Of a stretch of DNA of 64,000 nt, positions 2,946 through 46,296 are shown piece after piece. The position numbers and the translations under genes are program-made. The notes under the pieces were generated by a model. That model saw only the letters and a list, made by a program, of their open reading frames with translations. It was not told the origin of the DNA and searched no databases. The first letter of the stretch is position 1; the number at the start of each line of letters is the position of its first letter. The DNA is from Psychroserpens mesophilus. Its GTDB lineage: Bacteria; Bacteroidota; Bacteroidia; Flavobacteriales; Flavobacteriaceae. The stretch spans positions 124,001-188,000 of the forward strand of contig NZ_JXJP01000002.1 in the NCBI RefSeq assembly GCF_000826645.1. Direction: 5' to 3'.

Positions 2946-3701
2946 ATGAAAAACGAAAACTTATACAATTACATACTAGGCATAGCAGATAACAGTCTTA
3001 TCCTTGGTCAGCGTATGGGAGAACTTTGTGGCCATGGCCCAAGTTTAGAAACTGATATCGCTTGTACCAATATTTCATTAGATTTATTCGGACAAGTACG
3101 AAGTTATTTTCAATATGCTGCTAAAATTGCAGGAGATAAGAGAACAGAAGATGATATCGCGATGCTTCGCAAAGAACGCGAATATAAAAATGTATTACTG
3201 GTAGAACAGCCCAATACAAACTTTGCCTATTCTATTGGTCGTCAATTTTTATTTGATGTCTATCATTTGGCCTTTTTAACGGAGTTGCAGAAAAGTTCAG
3301 ATTTAACATTGTCAGCAATAGCAAACAAGTGTGTCAAAGAAGTGAGTTATCACGAGCGATTTTCTTCAGATTGGGTAAAACGTTTAGGTGATGGCACTGA
3401 GGAGAGTAATCAAAAAATGCAGGAAGCTATTAATGATTTGTGGACCTATACAGACGAACTATTTCATCAAACTCCAGCTGATATAGCTATGGTAACTGAA
3501 GGCGTTGGTGTTGATGTAACCAAATTAAAAGAAAAGTATTACAAACAAGTAAGTGAACTATTACAAGAGGCCAATCTCGAAGTTCCTGAATCAAAATGGT
3601 TTCAAAAAGGAGGTAAAGAAGGTATTCATACAGAGCATTTAGGGTATTTATTAAGCGATTTGCAATACATGCAACGCACATATCCTAATATGGAGTGGTA
3701 A
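2946..3701 (+). CDS. paaC: 1,2-phenylacetyl-CoA epoxidase structural subunit PaaC
   Basis: PaaC is a ferritin-like subunit that has lost iron binding and holds PaaA in the epoxidase complex. The 251-aa length matches the family (E. coli 248). Family signatures visible are ADNSLILGQRMGELCGHGP at the N-terminus, a central EVSYHERFSSDWVKRLGDG helix, and a C-terminal GKEGIHTEHLGYLL segment. It starts with ATG just after a family E repeat and ends two bases before a family A hairpin, so its expression unit is bounded by repeats on both sides. Confidence 0.96.
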   Translation: MKNENLYNYILGIADNSLILGQRMGELCGHGPSLETDIACTNISLDLFGQVRSYFQYAAKIAGDKRTEDDIAMLRKEREYKNVLLVEQPNTNFAYSIGRQFLFDVYHLAFLTELQKSSDLTLSAIANKCVKEVSYHERFSSDWVKRLGDGTEESNQKMQEAINDLWTYTDELFHQTPADIAMVTEGVGVDVTKLKEKYYKQVSELLQEANLEVPESKWFQKGGKEGIHTEHLGYLLSDLQYMQRTYPNMEW

Positions 3702-3703
3702 AA

Positions 3704-3726
3704 ATTCCTGCGAAAGCAGGAATCTC
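3704..3726. repeat. Family A hairpin (after paaC)
   Basis: ATTCCTGCGAAAGCAGGAAT is a perfect 8-base stem with a GAAA tetraloop, followed by CTC. It starts two bases after the paaC stop codon. Confidence 0.8.
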
Positions 3727-3745
3727 ATAAAACGATAAAAGAAAT

Positions 3746-3799
3746 GTCATCCTAAAATTTTCACACTGAGCGCAGTTGAAGTGTTATTCAGGATCTCAT
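3746..3799. repeat. Composite nested palindromic repeat
   Basis: An outer pair (GTCATCCT ... TTCAGGATCTCA) encloses a second hairpin, ACACTGAGCGCAGTTGAAGT, which resembles the family B/C core. One repeat appears to have landed inside another. Confidence 0.45.
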
Positions 3800-3815
3800 C
3801 ATAAACAGAATTAGA

Positions 3816-3844
3816 TGTCATTCAGAGCAAAGCGAAGAATCTCA
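3816..3844. repeat. Palindromic repeat, family E (upstream of paaD)
   Basis: Near-identical to the copy at 2900-2928. It ends 9 bases before the paaD start, so it forms most of the translation-initiation region. Confidence 0.7.
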
Positions 3845-3853
3845 TTTTAAATT

Positions 3854-4354
3854 ATGACAACAACAGAACAAAACATAGACGAAATTTTAATTCCAATTCT
3901 GGAACAGGTTTCTGATCCAGAAATCCCAGTATTATCCATCATGGATATGGGAGTTGTGCGTTCTGCTGTTATCAAAAATAATATAGTTAAAGTCGAAATC
4001 ACACCAACCTATAGTGGTTGTCCAGCAATGGATGTGATTGGTGACGACATCAAAAAAGCATTACAAGAGGCAGGTTACGAATCTGAGATTGATTTGATTT
4101 TGCATCCAGCTTGGACAACCGATTGGATCACACCAAGAGGTCGAAAAGCTTTAGAAGATTATGGTATAGCAGCACCTTTAAATGCCGAAGCAGATAAAGA
4201 GGTTCTGCTTAATGGAAAACGAATCGTGAAATGTCCACAATGTCGATCAACAAACACACGATTAGTCAGTCAGTTTGGTTCAACAGCATGTAAAGCACAA
4301 TTTCAGTGCGATGATTGTCAGGAACCTTTTGATTACTTCAAGTGCTTGAAGTAA
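3854..4354 (+). CDS. paaD: Phenylacetate degradation protein PaaD (DUF59/MIP18 with zinc-ribbon tail)
   Basis: PaaD is needed for an active epoxidase, probably in iron or Fe-S cluster assembly for PaaE/PaaA; the exact role is inferred from its DUF59 family. The 166-aa protein has an N-terminal DUF59 domain with DPEIPVLSIMDMG (residues 21-33) and the reactive-type cysteine in YSGCPAMD (Cys56). A C-terminal zinc-ribbon-like tail has Cys127, 130, 146, 152, 155 and 164 and ends EPFDYFKCLK, all typical of PaaD. The last codons and the stop lie inside a perfect 15-base inverted repeat (see 4328-4359). Confidence 0.95.
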   Translation: MTTTEQNIDEILIPILEQVSDPEIPVLSIMDMGVVRSAVIKNNIVKVEITPTYSGCPAMDVIGDDIKKALQEAGYESEIDLILHPAWTTDWITPRGRKALEDYGIAAPLNAEADKEVLLNGKRIVKCPQCRSTNTRLVSQFGSTACKAQFQCDDCQEPFDYFKCLK

Positions 4355-4359
4355 TCAAA
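4328..4359. repeat. Perfect 15-base inverted repeat across the paaD stop
   Basis: Arms TTTGATTACTTCAAG and CTTGAAGTAATCAAA are separated by two bases (TG). The arms include the last codons of paaD and its stop. There is no T-run after it, so it is not an ordinary terminator. A family A variant follows directly. Confidence 0.75.
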
Positions 4360-4378
4360 TTTCTGCGAAAGCAGAAAT
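4359..4378. repeat. Family A hairpin variant (after paaD)
   Basis: ATTTCTGCGAAAGCAGAAAT keeps the 8-base stem through a compensatory change (CC/GG to TC/GA) relative to the family A consensus. This indicates that pairing, not only sequence, is kept. Confidence 0.75.
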
Positions 4379-4398
4379 CCTATAAATAGAAATAAAAT

Positions 4399-4427
4399 GT
4401 CACCTTGAGCGCAGTCGAAAGGTCTCA
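4399..4427. repeat. Palindromic repeat, family B (upstream of paaG)
   Basis: TGTCACCTTGAGCGCAGTCG then AAAGGTCTCA. The arms ACCTT/AAGGT pair with a change matched on both sides relative to the ACCTC/GAGGT form. It ends 12 bases before paaG. Confidence 0.75.
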
Positions 4428-4439
4428 ATATAAAGAAAT

Positions 4440-5222
4440 ATGAACGAAAGCATTCAGCTTAAAATTGAAAATAAAGTAGCGTACATCACGCTCAATAGAC
4501 CAGAAGTCTTTAATAGCTTTAATCGTGACATGGCTTTATGCCTTCAATCAATTCTAGATGATTGTGAAACAAATTCAGAAGTAAGAGCAATCGTTCTTAC
4601 TGGAAACGGAAAAGCATTTTGTGCTGGACAGGATTTAAAAGAAGTCACTGATCCAGATTTAAATCCTGGATTCAAAAAAATACTTGAAGAACATTACAAT
4701 CCCATAATCACAAGAATTCGTGCAATTAAAAAACCAATTATTGCAGCAGTAAATGGTGTGGCAGCAGGTGCTGGAGCAAATATTGCGCTGGCTTGTGATA
4801 TTGTTGTAGCACATGAAAAAGTGAGTTTCATTCAAGCGTTTAGTTTAATCGGTTTAGTTCCTGATAGTGCAGGAACCTTCTTTTTACCAAGACTTATCGG
4901 TTTCCAAAAAGCATTAGCATTAGCCATGTTAGGAGACAAAATTGGAGCTGAAGAAGCCGAAAAACTTGGTATGATTTACAAAGTCATTCCCTTAGAAAAT
5001 TTTGAAGATGAGGTAAATAAGTTAGCCTTGAAATTAGCCAACATGCCTACCAAAGCTCTAGGGTTTATTAAAGAATTATTTAATCAATCGATGACCAATG
5101 ATTTAGATGCGCAATTAGCTTTAGAATCAAAATTGCAAATTGAAGCAGCACAAAGTGAAGATTATGCAGAAGGTGTAGCCGCGTTTATCGAAAAACGTAA
5201 ACCAAATTTTAAAGGAAAATAA
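4440..5222 (+). CDS. paaG: 1,2-epoxyphenylacetyl-CoA isomerase PaaG (crotonase family)
   Basis: PaaG converts ring-1,2-epoxyphenylacetyl-CoA into oxepin-CoA and also shifts double bonds later in the pathway. The protein is 260 aa with the crotonase fold. Oxyanion-hole segments GKAFCAGQDLKE and VAAGAGANIALACD are present, with the PaaG-type FIQAFSLIGLVPDSAGTFFL block holding the likely catalytic Asp142. The two glutamates of true enoyl-CoA hydratases are absent, as expected of PaaG. It lies between paaD and paaH; the upstream spacer carries family A and B repeats. Confidence 0.92.
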   Translation: MNESIQLKIENKVAYITLNRPEVFNSFNRDMALCLQSILDDCETNSEVRAIVLTGNGKAFCAGQDLKEVTDPDLNPGFKKILEEHYNPIITRIRAIKKPIIAAVNGVAAGAGANIALACDIVVAHEKVSFIQAFSLIGLVPDSAGTFFLPRLIGFQKALALAMLGDKIGAEEAEKLGMIYKVIPLENFEDEVNKLALKLANMPTKALGFIKELFNQSMTNDLDAQLALESKLQIEAAQSEDYAEGVAAFIEKRKPNFKGK

Positions 5223-5230
5223 TTTAAAGT

Positions 5231-5303
5231 TGTCACCTCGAGCATTGGTTGAAATAAAATGTAATTTTATTGAAAGCACATTGGAAAGCAATACGAGAGG
5301 TCA
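5231..5303. repeat. Long family B repeat with internal segment, copy 2
   Basis: It opens TGTCACCTCGAGCATTGG and closes ATACGAGAGGTCACATTG, with the inner TTTTATTGAAAGCACATTG block also found at 2375-2446. It fills most of the paaG-paaH spacer. Confidence 0.6.
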
Positions 5304-5324
5304 CATTGAAAGATAAACAGAATT

Positions 5325-6500
5325 ATGAACATAGGAATAATTGGTTCAGGAACAATGGGAAGTGGCATCGCACAAGTGGCAGCTACTGCTGGTTGTCAAG
5401 TAAAATTATACGATACCAATCAAGCAGCTTTAGATAAGGCAAAGACATCATTGGAAAAAATCTTGTCGCGTCTAATAGAAAAAGGACGCATAGATGCTTC
5501 TGAAAAAGATAGAATTCAATCTAATATTAGTTATGTTAATACTTTAAAAGATTTATCAGATGCTAACCTTACCATTGAAGCCATAATCGAAAATCTGGAG
5601 ATTAAACAAAAAGTCTTTTCAGAATTAGAAAGTTATGTAGCTGAGGATTGTATCATCGCATCAAACACTTCGAGTTTATCAATAGCCTCTATCGCAGCAT
5701 CTTTAAATAAACCTGAACGTTGTGTCGGTATTCACTTTTTCAATCCAGCACCTTTAATGAAATTAGTTGAAATCATTCCTGCGATTCAAACATCTAAAGA
5801 GGTACTTCAAAAATCAATTGAAACCATTTCCGACTGGAATAAAGTGGTTGCAGTTGCTAAAGATACTCCAGGATTTATCGTTAATAGGGTTGCAAGACCT
5901 TTCTATGGTGAATCATTACGAATTTATGAAGAAGGAATCGCAGATTTCGCAACTATAGATGCTGCCATGAAAGATGTTGGAGGTTTCAGAATGGGACCTT
6001 TTGAATTGATGGATTTCATCGGAAATGATGTGAATTATACAGTAACAGAAACGGTTTTTACAGCCTTTTATTTCGATCCGAGATACAAACCAGCATTCAC
6101 ACAAAAACGTTTTGCTGAAGCTGGGTACTTAGGACGAAAATCAGGAAAAGGTTATTACGATTATGATGAAAACGGAAAGCTAATTTCACGTCATTCTGAA
6201 CTTGTTTCAGAATCTCATAACAGTAAATTATCAGAGCAAATTTTCAACCGTGTTTTAGTCATGCTCATCAACGAAGCTGCAGATGCATTATTTCTGAATA
6301 TTGCTTCAGCAAAAGATATTGATAATGCCATGACTAAAGGTGTCAATTATCCAAAAGGATTATTAGCTTGGGCAGATGAAAAAGGAATCGATTGGTGTGT
6401 GAATACCATGGATGAACTATATAGCGAATATCATGAAGATCGCTATCGTTGTAGTCCGTTGTTACGTAAAATGAAAAAAGAAAACAAAACATTTTTTTAA
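5325..6500 (+). CDS. paaH: 3-hydroxyacyl-CoA dehydrogenase (PaaH type) with an in-frame repeat
   Basis: It oxidises 3-hydroxyadipyl-CoA to 3-oxoadipyl-CoA with NAD+. The 391-aa protein has a Rossmann domain with GSGTMGSG (Gly7, 9, 12), the IEAIIENLEIKQKVF segment, and a catalytic His137 in VGIHFFNPAP. A first C-terminal dimerisation domain occupies about residues 185-285 and a second about 302-388, where SEQIFNRVLVMLINEAAD marks the repeat of that domain. Between the two, residues 289-299 read RHSELVSESHN. That stretch is a translated family D palindrome (6190-6218), also seen as intergenic DNA at 1272 and 2767. It sits in a domain linker, so the enzyme is probably still active (inference). 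Confidence 0.93.
   Translation: MNIGIIGSGTMGSGIAQVAATAGCQVKLYDTNQAALDKAKTSLEKILSRLIEKGRIDASEKDRIQSNISYVNTLKDLSDANLTIEAIIENLEIKQKVFSELESYVAEDCIIASNTSSLSIASIAASLNKPERCVGIHFFNPAPLMKLVEIIPAIQTSKEVLQKSIETISDWNKVVAVAKDTPGFIVNRVARPFYGESLRIYEEGIADFATIDAAMKDVGGFRMGPFELMDFIGNDVNYTVTETVFTAFYFDPRYKPAFTQKRFAEAGYLGRKSGKGYYDYDENGKLISRHSELVSESHNSKLSEQIFNRVLVMLINEAADALFLNIASAKDIDNAMTKGVNYPKGLLAWADEKGIDWCVNTMDELYSEYHEDRYRCSPLLRKMKKENKTFF
6190..6218. repeat. Family D palindrome inside paaH
   Basis: GTCATTCTGAACTTGTTTCA then GAATCTCAT lies in frame within the linker of the 3-hydroxyacyl-CoA dehydrogenase. The arms ATTCTGAA/TTCAGAAT are intact, so the hairpin is preserved although the DNA is coding. Confidence 0.85.
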
Positions 6501-6535: not shown

Positions 6536-6922
6536 ATGAAGAGTAGCTATCATTTTAAATTTGAAGATTTATTAGTGTATCAAAAAGCTATGGATTTTGG
6601 AGAAGAAGTTGACGAATTAGTGAAAAATTTTCCTAATCACGAATTATATGCTCTATCATCACAATTTAGAAGAGCAGCAGATTCTATTGCTTTAAATCTT
6701 GCTGAAGGCTATCCTGGTTCAGATGCGCAATTTATCAAACACATCAATCATGCTATTTATAGCTCAAACGAATGTGTTAGTTGTAGTACAAAGGCTAAAA
6801 GAAGATCATATATTAATTTTGAACAAGATGAAAAAAACAGAGAACAGATATCAGAGTTAACAAAAATGATGACCTCATTGAGAAAGACCATTTTAGAAAG
6901 AAATGCAAAAACTAATCCCTAA
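6536..6922 (+). CDS. Four-helix-bundle protein (S23/IVP family)
   Basis: This 128-aa protein belongs to the family first found encoded in intervening sequences of 23S rRNA genes and often called S23 ribosomal protein or IVP; its molecular function is not established. Family marks are FEDLLVYQKAMDF at residues 9-21, SSQFRRAADSIALNLAEG at 41-58, and a C-terminal TKMMTSLRKTI helix. It is here inside a catabolic operon, not an rRNA gene. ATTAGGGAT (6509-6517) and GGGATTAGT (6527-6535) upstream pair with ACTAATCCCTAAT (6911-6923) at its stop codon. This suggests a discrete inserted unit. The stretch CSTKAKRRSYINFEQDEKNR departs from the usual family helix spacing, perhaps reflecting sequence drift. 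Confidence 0.85.
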   Translation: MKSSYHFKFEDLLVYQKAMDFGEEVDELVKNFPNHELYALSSQFRRAADSIALNLAEGYPGSDAQFIKHINHAIYSSNECVSCSTKAKRRSYINFEQDEKNREQISELTKMMTSLRKTILERNAKTNP

Positions 6923-7347: not shown

Positions 7348-7370
7348 ATTCCTGCGAAGGCAGGAATCTC
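7348..7370. repeat. Family A hairpin (directly after paaI)
   Basis: ATTCCTGCGAAGGCAGGAAT plus CTC starts two bases after the paaI stop; the stem pairing is perfect. Confidence 0.8.
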
Positions 7371-7421
7371 TTAGTAGAAAGAAAATGAATTTTGACTAAG
7401 AAAAAAACATAGCAAGTAGAA

Positions 7422-7541
7422 GCGTTAGGGATTGATGTGGCATCCTTTTTTACATCCGTTCGAGTGAAATTGCTTTTAGCAATTTTGTAAGGTGAACAAG
7501 TAAAAAAGATATAACGGAAAGCCCGACCATTAGGGAACGCC
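7422..7541 (-). repeat. Structured repeat, family X, copy 2 (possible ncRNA or RNA element)
   Basis: Read on the minus strand this is a family X copy: GGCGTTCCCT, a GGTCGGGCTTTCCG block, then CAATCCCTAACGC. It is the largest copy and has visible secondary structure. GCGTT (7422-7426) pairs with AACGC (7536-7540). ATCC-TTTTTTAC pairs with GTAAAAAA-GAT, GTTC with GAAC, and ATTGC-TTTTA-GCAAT makes the tip. The nested stems suggest a folded RNA or cruciform. It may correspond to a known Flavobacteria RNA motif (Flavo-1 is the obvious candidate to test); I cannot confirm this by eye. It fills most of the 244-base paaI-paaJ spacer. Confidence 0.6.
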
Positions 7542-7590
7542 AAAAAGAATATTAATAATTAAAAGATATCTGGTTTCGCAGGCATTTAAA

Positions 7591-8805
7591 ATGAAAGAAG
7601 CATACATCATAGACGGAGTAAGAACTCCAATAGGAAATTACAAAGGCACATTATCTGCTGTACGCACAGACGATTTAGCAGCTTTAGTAATTGAAGAAAT
7701 CGTAAAAAGAAATCCAAACATCCCAAAGGAAGCGTATGACGATGTCATTATGGGTTGCGCCAATCAAGCTGGCGAAGATAATCGTAATGTCGCCCGAATG
7801 GCATCCTTATTAGCAGGATTGCCTTTTACAGTTCCTGGCGAAACAGTAAACCGTTTATGTAGTTCTGGTTTGTCTGCAATTATTCATGCAAATCGTGCTA
7901 TTAAAGCTGGTGATGGTGACCTGTTTATTTCTGGAGGTGTTGAAAACATGACACGTGGTCCTTATGTGATATCAAAATCATCGACAGGATTTGGAGGCGA
8001 TTCAAAAATGTATGACTCCACTTTCGGCTGGCGTTTTATAAATCCCAAAATGCAAGAACTATATGGAACCGATGGTATGGGAAATACGGCTGAAAATTTA
8101 GTAACTAAGTATGCCATTTCAAGAATTGATCAAGATAAGTTTGCATATTGGAGCCAGATGAAGGCAACCAAAGCTCAAGAAAACGGACGATTAGCTAAGG
8201 AAATTGTAACCGTAGAAATTCCACAACGTAAAAAAGATCCTATCCGATTTTCGAAAGATGAATTTGTAAAACCAACGACATCATTGGAGGTTTTAGGAAA
8301 ATTACGTCCTGCATTTAAAAAGGAAGGTGGAAGTGTTACAGCTGGAAATTCATCTGGATTAAATGATGGAGCAGCAGCAACCATTATAGCTTCCGAAGAG
8401 GCTGTAAAAAAATATAACCTAAAACCATTGGCTAGAATAGTTAGTTCTGCTGTGGTTGGTGTTGAACCAAGAATTATGGGAATTGGCCCAGTTCAAGCAT
8501 CAAATAAAGCTTTGAAAAAAGCAGGATTGACCATGAATGATATGGATATTATAGAGCTTAACGAAGCGTTTGCTGCTCAAGCCTTAGCCTGTACAAGAGC
8601 TTGGGGATTGGCAGATGACGATCCAAGACTAAATCCAAATGGAGGATCGATTGCTATGGGTCATCCATTAGGAGTCACTGGAGCAAGAATTGCCTATTCC
8701 GCAGCTTTAGAATTGAAGGAACAACAAAAAAGATATGCGTTGGTTACCATGTGTATTGGTGTCGGACAAGGATATGCTGCGATAATTGAACGAGTTCCTG
8801 CGTAG
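7591..8805 (+). CDS. paaJ: 3-oxoadipyl-CoA/3-oxo-5,6-dehydrosuberyl-CoA thiolase PaaJ
   Basis: PaaJ performs the two thiolytic cleavages of the phenylacetate pathway, releasing acetyl-CoA and finally succinyl-CoA. The 404-aa thiolase has the catalytic triad at Cys90 (NRLCSSGL), His358 (MGHPLG) and Cys388 (MCIGVGQG), at positions close to those of E. coli PaaJ. The [20 protein letters not shown] loop is typical of the subfamily. The final residues V-P-A and the TAG stop come from a family A hairpin (8794-8816), so the native C-terminus appears to have been replaced or trimmed by repeat insertion. It lies between paaI and paaZ. Confidence 0.94.
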
Positions 8806-8816
8806 GCAGGAATCTC
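8794..8816. repeat. Family A hairpin supplying the paaJ stop codon
   Basis: TTCCTGCGTAGGCAGGAA (8795-8812) has the paaJ TAG at 8803-8805 in its loop. The left arm encodes the last residues of PaaJ. It also forms the left border of the GIY-YIG pseudogene. Confidence 0.8.
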
Positions 8817-8829
8817 ACTATAAAGAAGA

Positions 8830-9150
8830 ATGATACATTGGTACGTCTATATAATGGCAAATAAACCAAGCAGAGTAATTTATATTGGTGTAACAGATAA
8901 TATTGTTGAAAGAGTAAGAGAACATTAAAAAAAGATTTATCCAAAATCATTCACAGCACGTTATAATTGTGATAAGCTTGTGTATTTTGAAGAGTTTGAA
9001 AATGGAGAAGATGCTTCTAAAAGAAAACGATAATTCAAAAAGTGGAAACGTGAATGGAAAGTGAAATTAATAGTAGATATGAATCCAAGTTGGTTTGATT
9101 TAAGTACAAATTAGAAATTAGATAATAGAGAGTTTAGAATTAATAAGTAA
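8830..9150 (+). pseudogene. Decayed GIY-YIG endonuclease gene
   Basis: Reading from the ATG at 8830, the frame aligns end to end with the intact GIY-YIG gene at 12579-12902 (WYVYIMA, YIGVTDN, IYPKSFTARYNC, FKKWKREWKV, MNPSW, REF-NK), about four residues in five identical by eye. It is interrupted by three in-frame stops: TAA 8926-8928, TAA 9031-9033 and TAG 9112-9114. No frameshift is seen and only one codon is missing, so decay was by point mutation. It is bracketed by family A hairpins at 8794-8816 and 9155-9172, as is the intact copy. Confidence 0.85.
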
Positions 9151-9154
9151 AAAA

Positions 9155-9172
9155 TACCTGCTTTTACAGGCA
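9155..9172. repeat. Degenerate family A hairpin (right border of pseudogene)
   Basis: TACCTGCTTTTACAGGCA keeps a CCTG/CAGG stem only. It ends just before the paaZ start and mirrors the hairpin to the right of the intact GIY-YIG gene. Confidence 0.5.
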
Positions 9173-9178
9173 TTAGTT

Positions 9179-12538: not shown

Positions 12539-12541
12539 CTA

Positions 12542-12564
12542 ATTCCTGCGAAGGCAGGAATCTC
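12542..12564. repeat. Family A hairpin (left border of GIY-YIG gene)
   Basis: ATTCCTGCGAAGGCAGGAAT plus CTC starts 3 bases after the upstream stop codon and ends 14 bases before the GIY-YIG start. Confidence 0.8.
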
Positions 12565-12578
12565 ATAATGAATAAGTA

Positions 12579-12902
12579 ATGACGTTTTGGTATGTCTACA
12601 TAATGGCATATAAGCCAAATGGAGTAATTTATATTGGTGTGACTGATAATCTTGATGAAAGAGTAAGAGAGCATAAGTATAAGATTTATCCGAAATCATT
12701 TACGGCTAGATATAACTGTGAAAATCTTGTTTATTTTGAAGAATTTGATAACGGAGAAGACGCTTCAACTAGAGAAAGGCGATTCAAAAAATGGAAAAGA
12801 GAATGGAAAGTCAATTTAATTGAAGAAATGAATCCTAGTTGGACAGATTTAAGCATTAATTGGAACTTAGATAATAATAGAGAGTTTAGAGTTAATAAAT
12901 AA
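12579..12902 (+). CDS. GIY-YIG endonuclease domain protein (intact copy)
   Basis: A single-domain GIY-YIG nuclease-fold protein of 107 aa. The N-terminal strand FWYVYIMAYKPNGVIYIGVT contains the VY..YIG signature, followed by the conserved Arg helix (DERVREHKYK) and KSFTARYNCENLVYFEEF. This group is often annotated UvrC-like, but no other UvrC domain is present. Its family's function is unclear. A decayed copy lies 3.7 kb upstream. Both copies are bracketed by family A hairpins (this one by 12542-12564 and 12907-12925) and lie between paa genes that they do not obviously serve. A selfish or repeat-spreading role is an inference. Confidence 0.88.
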   Translation: MTFWYVYIMAYKPNGVIYIGVTDNLDERVREHKYKIYPKSFTARYNCENLVYFEEFDNGEDASTRERRFKKWKREWKVNLIEEMNPSWTDLSINWNLDNNREFRVNK

Positions 12903-12906
12903 TAAG

Positions 12907-12925
12907 ATTCCTGCCTGCGCAGGAA
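12907..12925. repeat. Family A hairpin (right border of GIY-YIG gene)
   Basis: ATTCCTGCCTGCGCAGGAA, with TTCCTGC/GCAGGAA arms, starts four bases after the GIY-YIG stop. Confidence 0.75.
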
Positions 12926-12934
12926 GTAATAATA

Positions 12935-45861: not shown

Positions 45862-46296
45862 TTATTGTTTCTTATAAGCCATAACCTTAATTTCAATGAC
45901 CAGATCTGGATGAGGTAGTTGATGCACAGCAACTGTGGTTCGTGTTGGTCCTGTAGCTTTGTCAAAGAACTCACCATAAGCCTTGTTGTAATCTGCGAAA
46001 TCATTCATATTGACTAAAAACGAGGTGACATCAACCACATCTTTAAGGCTAGCACCAACTTTTTTTAAATTGGCATCAATGTTTTTTAAAACTTCCTGAG
46101 TTTGTGTGTAAACATTGAGTCGTTTAGTTCCCATGTCATCAATAAGGTCAACTCCTGCAATAGAATTGTCAGGTCGTCTTGAACTGGTTCCTGAGACGAA
46201 AATGAAATCGCCTACTTGCTTTACATGTGGATATGCTCCTCTTGGTGTTACTCCAGTTCCTGCGGAAGCAGGAATCTTATTGTCTTTTTCTTCCAT
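45862..46296 (-). CDS. RidA-family 2-aminomuconate deaminase, with an in-frame repeat at the N-terminus
   Basis: A RidA/YjgF-fold protein of 144 aa. Context between KMO and aminomuconate-semialdehyde dehydrogenase points to 2-aminomuconate deaminase, which gives 4-oxalocrotonate. Core features are [15 protein letters not shown], the active-type [21 protein letters not shown] segment with the conserved Arg (in TRTTV), and the VMAYKK C-terminus. Residues 8-14 (IPASAGT) are translated from a family A hairpin (46256-46277) inserted at the N-terminus, before VTPRGAYP where homologous proteins normally begin their core. The effect is probably tolerated because this is the floppy start. Confidence 0.9.
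46256..46277. repeat. Family A hairpin inside the RidA gene
   Basis: GTTCCTGCGGAAGCAGGAAT plus CT. On the coding strand it gives IPASAG(T). The stem is intact. Confidence 0.85.

Follow-up and report, generated by a model that had tools for sequence, protein, structure and literature searches.

A gene for a single-domain GIY-YIG nuclease was found between two inverted hairpins in a 64,000-nucleotide stretch of the Psychroserpens mesophilus genome (hereafter the window), and the whole is probably a mobile or formerly mobile unit of ~385 bp in which an RxWK-type, Ssn-like nuclease would nick, and so copy, DNA bounded by its own cognate hairpins. The inverted hairpin ends, the presence or absence of the unit as a block, the covariation of hairpin arms with protein subfamily and the larger number of hairpins in gene-bearing genomes were all observed directly. 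The unit is best read as a GIY-YIG counterpart of the REP/RAYT systems, mobile over evolutionary time, whose nuclease would cleave the hairpins and actively mobilise the segment; the association and the turnover of units support this reading well, while its mechanism is a proposal. Bacterial genomes widely carry REPs, which are short repeats, and the importance of the reading is that it would join a GIY-YIG nuclease family to a REP superfamily without a known enzyme.

Units and relics in the window

Family A hairpins were sought in the window with the pattern ATTCCTGCN4GCAGGAAT, allowing up to 3 mismatches, which gave 10 occurrences against 0.34 expected and a maximum of 3 in any of 100 shuffles. 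Over the full 3.68 Mb of the genome there are 13 perfect TTCCTGCN4GCAGGAA palindromes, six of them inside the window. The names of neighbouring genes (the paa genes, dut, rmlA and odhB) are presumed from their sequences. The features concerned are as follows.

3704..3723, + strand: solo family A hairpin directly after a stop codon, between paaC and paaD (palindrome scan)
4359..4378, + strand: solo hairpin with 2 mutually compensating mismatches (ATTTCTGC..GCAGAAAT), between paaD and paaG1 (palindrome scan)
7348..7367, + strand: left-end hairpin of a relic unit that has no gene, between paaI and paaJ (palindrome scan)
7566..7585, - strand: right end of that relic unit, degraded, ATATCTGGTTTCGCAGGCAT (comparison with L099-L101)
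8794..8813, + strand: left hairpin of the dead unit, perfect over 8795-8812
8830..9150, + strand: dead GIY-YIG copy with 3 stop codons, its protein 78% identical to the intact one
9154..9173, - strand: right hairpin of the dead unit, degenerate, 3 mismatches
12540..12928, + strand: intact unit (hairpin, GIY-YIG gene, inverted hairpin) between paaG2 and paaY
12542..12561, + strand: left hairpin ATTCCTGC-GAAG-GCAGGAAT, then tail CTCATAA (palindrome scan, folding)
12579..12902, + strand: single-domain GIY-YIG nuclease gene, 107 aa, RxWK type (PF01541, alignments, model)
12907..12926, - strand: right hairpin, inverted relative to the left (loop CTGC against GAAG) (palindrome scan, folding)
46256..46275, + strand: solo family A hairpin with tail CTTA (palindrome scan)

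The sequence-only reading had placed the intact gene between family A hairpins, and the palindrome scan and the terminal repeats confirmed this. The left hairpin is a perfect 20-bp palindrome with an 8-bp stem and a 4-nt loop; the right has a 7-bp stem, its perfect part being 18 bp (12908-12925), and the two unit ends form 30-bp terminal inverted repeats that match at 26 of 30 positions (12540-12569 against 12899-12928). The gene product matches PF01541 (E 3e-16), and Y18, G20, R28, H32, E66 and N85 are all present; the active-site residues Y18, R28, H32, E66 and N85, with known catalytic roles in the GIY-YIG superfamily, were invariant or nearly so in two alignments. Its structure model was confident (mean pLDDT 92.3), and the best PDB matches of the model were UPF0213 (1zg2, the top match; Foldseek E 0.004, probability 1.00) and Slx1, both GIY-YIG proteins matched at probability 1.00 with no E-value below 0.001. 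By sequence and model, the product is a single-domain GIY-YIG protein with an intact active site, as expected of the Ssn family.

A second copy had been described as a decayed sister, bracketed in the same way. The copy is dead and is bracketed by family A hairpins, of which the right one folded no better than shuffles (z -0.75), against z -4.4 to -5.9 for the other five hairpins folded. Dead and intact units align over their full length with a like layout, and the gene upstream of the dead unit (7591-8805) takes its stop codon from the unit's left hairpin. In the gene tree the dead copy falls together with an intact one that occupies this junction in a different genome (L098; support 99/93). 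It is therefore an older insertion and not simply a decayed copy of its intact neighbour, and the description as a sister was narrowed to that extent.

The earlier count of two units proved correct as far as it went: both are real, and more exist. Outside the window (G000:C6:239758-240032), a third homologue, itself degraded, also has hairpins on both sides, the right one with 2 mismatches, and all 3 homologues of the window protein found in the genome are thus bracketed by hairpins. In the gene-less relic at 7348-7585, both unit ends are present with other DNA in between, and the same paaI-paaJ junction carries a full unit in L099, L100 and L101. Such units had been put forward to explain the many solo hairpins; at least some of these are ends of decayed units, as seen from this relic and from others at the dut-rmlA junction (below), and others may be gene-less derivatives.

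Other insertions were noted in and around the paa operon. Its gaps (window 3700-5330, L237-L256) contain many other short palindromic insertions of TGTCATCCTGAACTTGATTCAGGATCTC, TGTCATTCCGCACTTGATGCGGAATCCA and CTCGAGCGCAGTCGAGAGG types, which vary between species. An ORF of 128 aa at 6536-6922, which we take to encode a protein of the four-helix-bundle/23S-IVP kind, separates paaH from paaI, two genes with a 0-bp gap in 10 of 19 readable panel genomes; a similar-looking ORF occurs at paaG2-paaY in genome G594. The paaH reading frame (window 5325-6500) contains the peptide RHSELVSES, presumably the usual translation of a palindromic repeat, and such a repeat may lie inside the gene.

Bracketing, arm sequence and hairpin number across genomes

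Homologues were searched for in 299 genomes of the same family, of which 147 had one at E 1e-10 and 152 had none; a phylum sample (match in 135 of 296 genomes) was added, as were 80 named loci from a genome scan for which K[KN]W[KNH]RxWK[IV] served as the seed motif. Copies were drawn mainly from the best matches of each list. Bracketing was scored on palindromes with 4-5 nt loops lying within 150 bp of the gene, with arms agreeing on both sides, and ORFs of at least 80 aa at the same loci, more than 350 bp from any copy, were used as controls. Arms matching at 6 or more of 7 bases were found on both sides of 69 of 216 copies (201 loci, best matches, some genomes included twice) and of 0 of 329 control ORFs. 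Hairpins are therefore commoner around GIY-YIG genes than around others, which is the comparison that the sequence-only reading had proposed. When 5 of 7 arm bases were accepted, 82 of the 216 copies were bracketed, again against 0/329; a first pass on 97 copies had given 34 bracketed against 0/103 non-adjacent ORFs (2/227 once copy-adjacent ORFs were included). In the closest relatives, family A hairpins with up to 3 mismatches lay on both sides of 41/60 distinct copies and 0/104 control ORFs. The association of hairpin and gene is not chance, and it reaches beyond Flavobacteriaceae.

A non-redundant set at 95% protein identity comprised 179 intact copies, in which (5/7 arm bases) 68 of 153 copies with the motif [RK]xWK were bracketed against 0 of 26 without it, e.g. 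those of KxGNRxKK or KGWxRxKK type, in a contrast that was picked only after the flanks had been seen; the genome scan that supplied part of the copies had moreover been seeded with this motif. More than half of the [RK]xWK copies (85/153) failed the two-sided test, in part because one hairpin has decayed. UPF0213/YhbQ-like proteins and other GIY-YIG proteins without RxWK share the fold (1zg2 and 1ywl were the closest small PDB matches) but differ in this lack of paired hairpins among the counted copies. One exception, of another kind, was met outside the counted set: L268 (G265, contig 1, 548938-549186), a GIY-YIG gene without RxWK, has TCCCGAT-armed hairpins at -187 and +7. Longer hairpins occur at L268 too, at -52 and +56, and it is perhaps a second type of hairpin-associated GIY-YIG gene. 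At L279, on a Planktothrix plasmid, a KGWxRxKK-type homologue has an MmeI-like gene on one side, the DISARM gene drmA on the other, and no hairpins.

Arm sequences differ from unit to unit, with 18 different seven-letter arms among 53 units (TTCCTGC, TTCCCGC, TGCTGAA, TTCCCAC, CTGCGCA and others; arms unlike that of family A include ATTCCCAC and ATGCTGAA); both arms vary together, so that the hairpin structure is kept. These units are the 53 of 86 W-motif copies with hairpins on both sides whose arms agree at 6 or more of 7 bases, and random re-pairing among loci gave 20 of 86 on average (maximum 30 in 1000 trials). The more two proteins diverge, the more their arms differ (Mantel r 0.49, p 0.0002, n=53), in an uneven trend: the mean was 1.39 of 7 below a protein distance of 0.2, 0.53 at 0.2-0.3, and 1.40, 2.34, 3.60 and 4.94 at successive larger distances. 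This correlation could come merely from joint descent of gene and hairpins. Two subfamilies within one stretch of one genome (L011; L118) keep different arms, which argues for more than base composition. Units of TTCCCGT/CACCCGA type at L025, L026, L031, L032, L035 and L036 were seen to have an extra hairpin of ~36 nt (for example TTTAAACAGTTCAATC..GATTGAACTGTTTAAA) just outside the short one, upstream of the gene.

The hairpins might instead be transcript elements, terminators or RNA stabilisers that pile up in intercistronic gaps with the gene as a passenger, and they do sit behind stop codons within an operon. This is very improbable as the main explanation, given that control ORFs at the same loci were never bracketed (0/329), that the arms follow protein subfamily and that a T-rich stretch (at least 7 T in 10 nt) followed only 21 of 372 hairpin ends, the count by which the terminator reading was ruled against; an added role in RNA is possible.

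Hairpin number was compared between genomes with the exact 20-bp family A pattern, at least one palindrome of which was present in 123 of 299 genomes, while a reversed control pattern gave 0 in all 299. The mean was 6.05 exact hairpins in the 147 genomes with a homologue and 0.80 in the 152 without (p 7e-14, a value that ignores kinship). In 31 genomes whose sampled copy was flanked by TCCTGC hairpins the mean was 14.8, or 12.6 after subtraction of two per flanked copy, and it was 4.83 in 47 genomes whose sampled copies have no TCCTGC flanks. Seven genomes were exceptions, with at least 5 palindromes and no homologue at 1e-10. More distant GIY-YIG proteins (E 1e-13 to 1e-17) were found in four of these (G096, G107, G131 and G265), and the ten such homologues inspected had neither the motif nor TTCCTGC hairpins; G097 and G282 gave long UvrC-like matches only, and in G158, which is 87% complete, a search found no GIY-YIG match.

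Carriage by other replicons was also considered. A phage origin was rejected, with no match among 50,697 phage records, as was carriage on plasmids, with matches in just 25 of 72,556 records, some of them chromosome-sized. Eight IMG/VR contigs classed as viral carry the gene (L269-L276), six of them with hairpins on both sides within 200 bp. Four of the eight have their hairpins at nearly equal distances (-35 to -37, +7), and these contigs may be host fragments.

Presence, absence and turnover at gene junctions

Empty sites, which had been proposed as a check, were found at three junctions. At paaG2-paaY, where the window's genome has 396 bp holding the intact unit, stop and start codons are 0-3 bp apart in 12 of 22 other genomes of the same genus; G595 has a degenerate solo hairpin there and the other nine have different inserts of 80-478 bp. 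At paaZ-paaG2, GIY-YIG copies with other hairpin types are present in 5 of 20 panel genomes and the gap is 2-6 bp in 8 of 20. At dut-rmlA, the window's genome carries the third unit (385 bp), and 8 of 22 relatives have 19-45 bp with no clear hairpin; both hairpin ends are kept around a shortened inside in G595, and a right-end-like remnant is left in G583 and G596. It was noted that G593, scored at 54 bp at dut-rmlA because its start was misplaced, may join the 19-45 bp group as a ninth member, and that G591 may retain a trace of a right end. These unit, empty and relic states indicate that units and relics come and go as blocks between cistrons. Loss of old units explains part of the pattern at dut-rmlA and paaI-paaJ.

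Comparison of the flanks of 77 copies showed no excess of direct repeats over re-paired ends and hence no target-site duplication, and a MITE or IS of DDE type was rejected on this ground; RAYT systems likewise are not known to make a target duplication. Neighbouring genes are mostly co-directional with the nuclease gene (upstream 164/175, downstream 135/164).

Among the closest relatives, 25 copies lie at dut-rmlA and most others in the paa operon, and the gene tree mixes these junctions. On this tree of clade A, a minimum of 14 changes of junction is required among 6 junctions, its deep branches being weak, and a single clade for all paaG2-paaY copies was not rejected (p-AU 0.39). A firm number of jumps was dropped on account of the weakly supported tree and this non-significant one-junction test. 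A hop of the intact unit from paaJ-paaZ was dropped too, its group having 82/90 support and being drawn open. A form of the right hairpin with an A-C mismatch was found in 11 of 13 units at paaJ-paaZ, paaI-paaJ and paaB-paaC, in 12 of 23 at dut-rmlA and in 0 of 14 at paaG2-paaY and paaY-odhB together (in three of these only odhB was recognised).

GIY-YIG is a homing-endonuclease fold, and the occupation of the same few junctions in many genomes could reflect homing, in which the nuclease cuts sites already bearing one or more hairpins and its gene is copied in by repair, as with free-standing homing endonucleases. The dependence of the A-C form on junction (0/14 against 11/13) and the degenerate solo hairpin of G595 at the very junction of the window's unit are in keeping with such a process. 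We consider it improbable: many empty junctions, at 0-6 bp, offer no hairpin to home into, both forms of the right hairpin occur at dut-rmlA (12/23), and the junction argument depends on a tree with poor support.

On the preferred reading of a mobile unit, the protein would recognise its hairpin in the single-strand state, as during replication, repair or DNA uptake, and would nick it. Nicks at both ends could then free or copy the segment, which would be resealed behind another operon gene with no target duplication, and the unit would there ride on the transcript of the upstream gene.

Comparison with known systems

As set out in the portions of Di Nocera 2013 (PMC3733652) drawn on here, CGTC REPs are marked by a tag (CGTC or TGTC), a stem of 8-9 bp starting with A-T pairs, a loop of 4-5 nt and, in most cases, the tail CCA; Neisseria dRS3 is one of them, as are repeats of Bradyrhizobium and G. 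forsetii. Those portions associate no dedicated transposase gene with the superfamily, and state that its repeats do not flank tyrosine transposase genes and that other transposase genes are met only fortuitously.

Family A agrees with this description in stem and loop, with A-T pairs at the first two positions of the stem, and resembles CGTC REP family 1 in its 8-bp stem beginning with A-T pairs and its 4-nt loop. The window units have no CGTC/TGTC tag, GTC being found in their clade at 3 left and 5 right ends of 18, and their tail is CTC (10/18 in the clade, against 1/18 for CCA). Family A, lacking tag and CCA tail, is thus a relative of CGTC-1 that fails two defining marks. Among 50 bracketed units from other clades than the window's, 33 left and 32 right ends have GTC on the outer side (~3 in 100 expected) and CCA is the commonest left tail (22/50); the hairpins of these other GIY-YIG subfamilies mostly bear the CGTC/TGTC tag. 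Many of the hairpins fit CGTC REPs, the tag having mostly been lost in the window's clade.

Bracketing, cognate arms and the link with copy number point to the GIY-YIG nuclease as the partner of the hairpins. At a little under even chances, we suggest that RxWK GIY-YIG nucleases may be the missing dedicated mobilising enzyme of CGTC REPs in bacteria at large (Neisseria dRS3, Bradyrhizobium, Bacteroidota and others), forming a second REP-nuclease system of independent origin beside GTAG/RAYT, with its own palindrome for each subfamily and the hairpin-gene-hairpin unit as its autonomous element. If this is true, hairpin parasites evolved twice with unrelated nucleases, and many enzyme/target pairs become available on which to study hairpin recognition by a small nuclease; the question can be tested with one small protein and one oligonucleotide.

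That some other recombinase, for instance a RAYT or another transposase of IS200 type, mobilises both the hairpins and the unit, with the GIY-YIG gene as cargo, has some precedent in the recognition and cleavage of single-stranded GTAG REPs by RAYT (PMC3733652, in part). We give this explanation very little credence, less than any other considered, in view of the absence, stated in the same portions, of CGTC repeats from the flanks of tyrosine transposase genes, and of the hairpin numbers, which follow the GIY-YIG gene, the one gene scored for them. Searches for literature pairing GIY-YIG with REP or dRS3, and wider searches, gave no such link among the matches listed, nor does one appear in the available parts of PMC12306157 and PMC9465073.

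The homologue in N. gonorrhoeae is 47.7% identical over residues 6-91, has RxWK and sits in a dRS3 array of 16 palindromes within 4.3 kb. Ssn, a Neisseria GIY-YIG nuclease with a palindromic target, NTS, is said to have been described by the Veyrier group in Nature Communications in 2025; it reportedly cuts NTS in single strands and modulates transformation. We infer that the gonococcal homologue is the published ssn. The view in the sequence-only reading that pairings of this kind are not well described therefore holds only in part, the reported Ssn family already joining a GIY-YIG protein to a palindromic target. A host-serving role of this sort, in which an Ssn cuts incoming or exposed single strands at palindromes and tunes transformation or repair, with hairpins as marks and autoregulatory sites and their spread incidental, would suit the position of the gonococcal homologue inside a dRS3 array, the reported action of Ssn and an upstream neighbour that is co-directional in 164/175 cases, as for a settled operon member. 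We hold it to be the less likely account, though one of some weight: the dead copies, gene-less relic and empty sites within one genus look like the turnover of a selfish unit rather than of a conserved host gene, and 152/299 genomes of the family have no homologue at E 1e-10.

Ssn/NTS is nevertheless the closest known system, as a single-domain GIY-YIG protein with palindromic repeats of the dRS3 kind. The window gene makes up a discrete unit with its pair of inverted hairpins, gained or missing as one block and leaving relics behind, a feature in which it may differ from Ssn/NTS. With REP/RAYT systems (REPtrons, REPINs), whose arrangement the sequence-only reading had likened to the window unit, the likeness stands in anatomy, palindromes around a small nuclease gene and many scattered solo palindromes, and in the statistics (69/216 against 0/329), also outside Flavobacteriaceae; the spreading of the hairpin by the nuclease would be the further point in common. 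The two differ in the enzyme, a GIY-YIG nuclease here and an HUH tyrosine transposase in RAYT, and in the tag, CGTC/TGTC as against GTAG.
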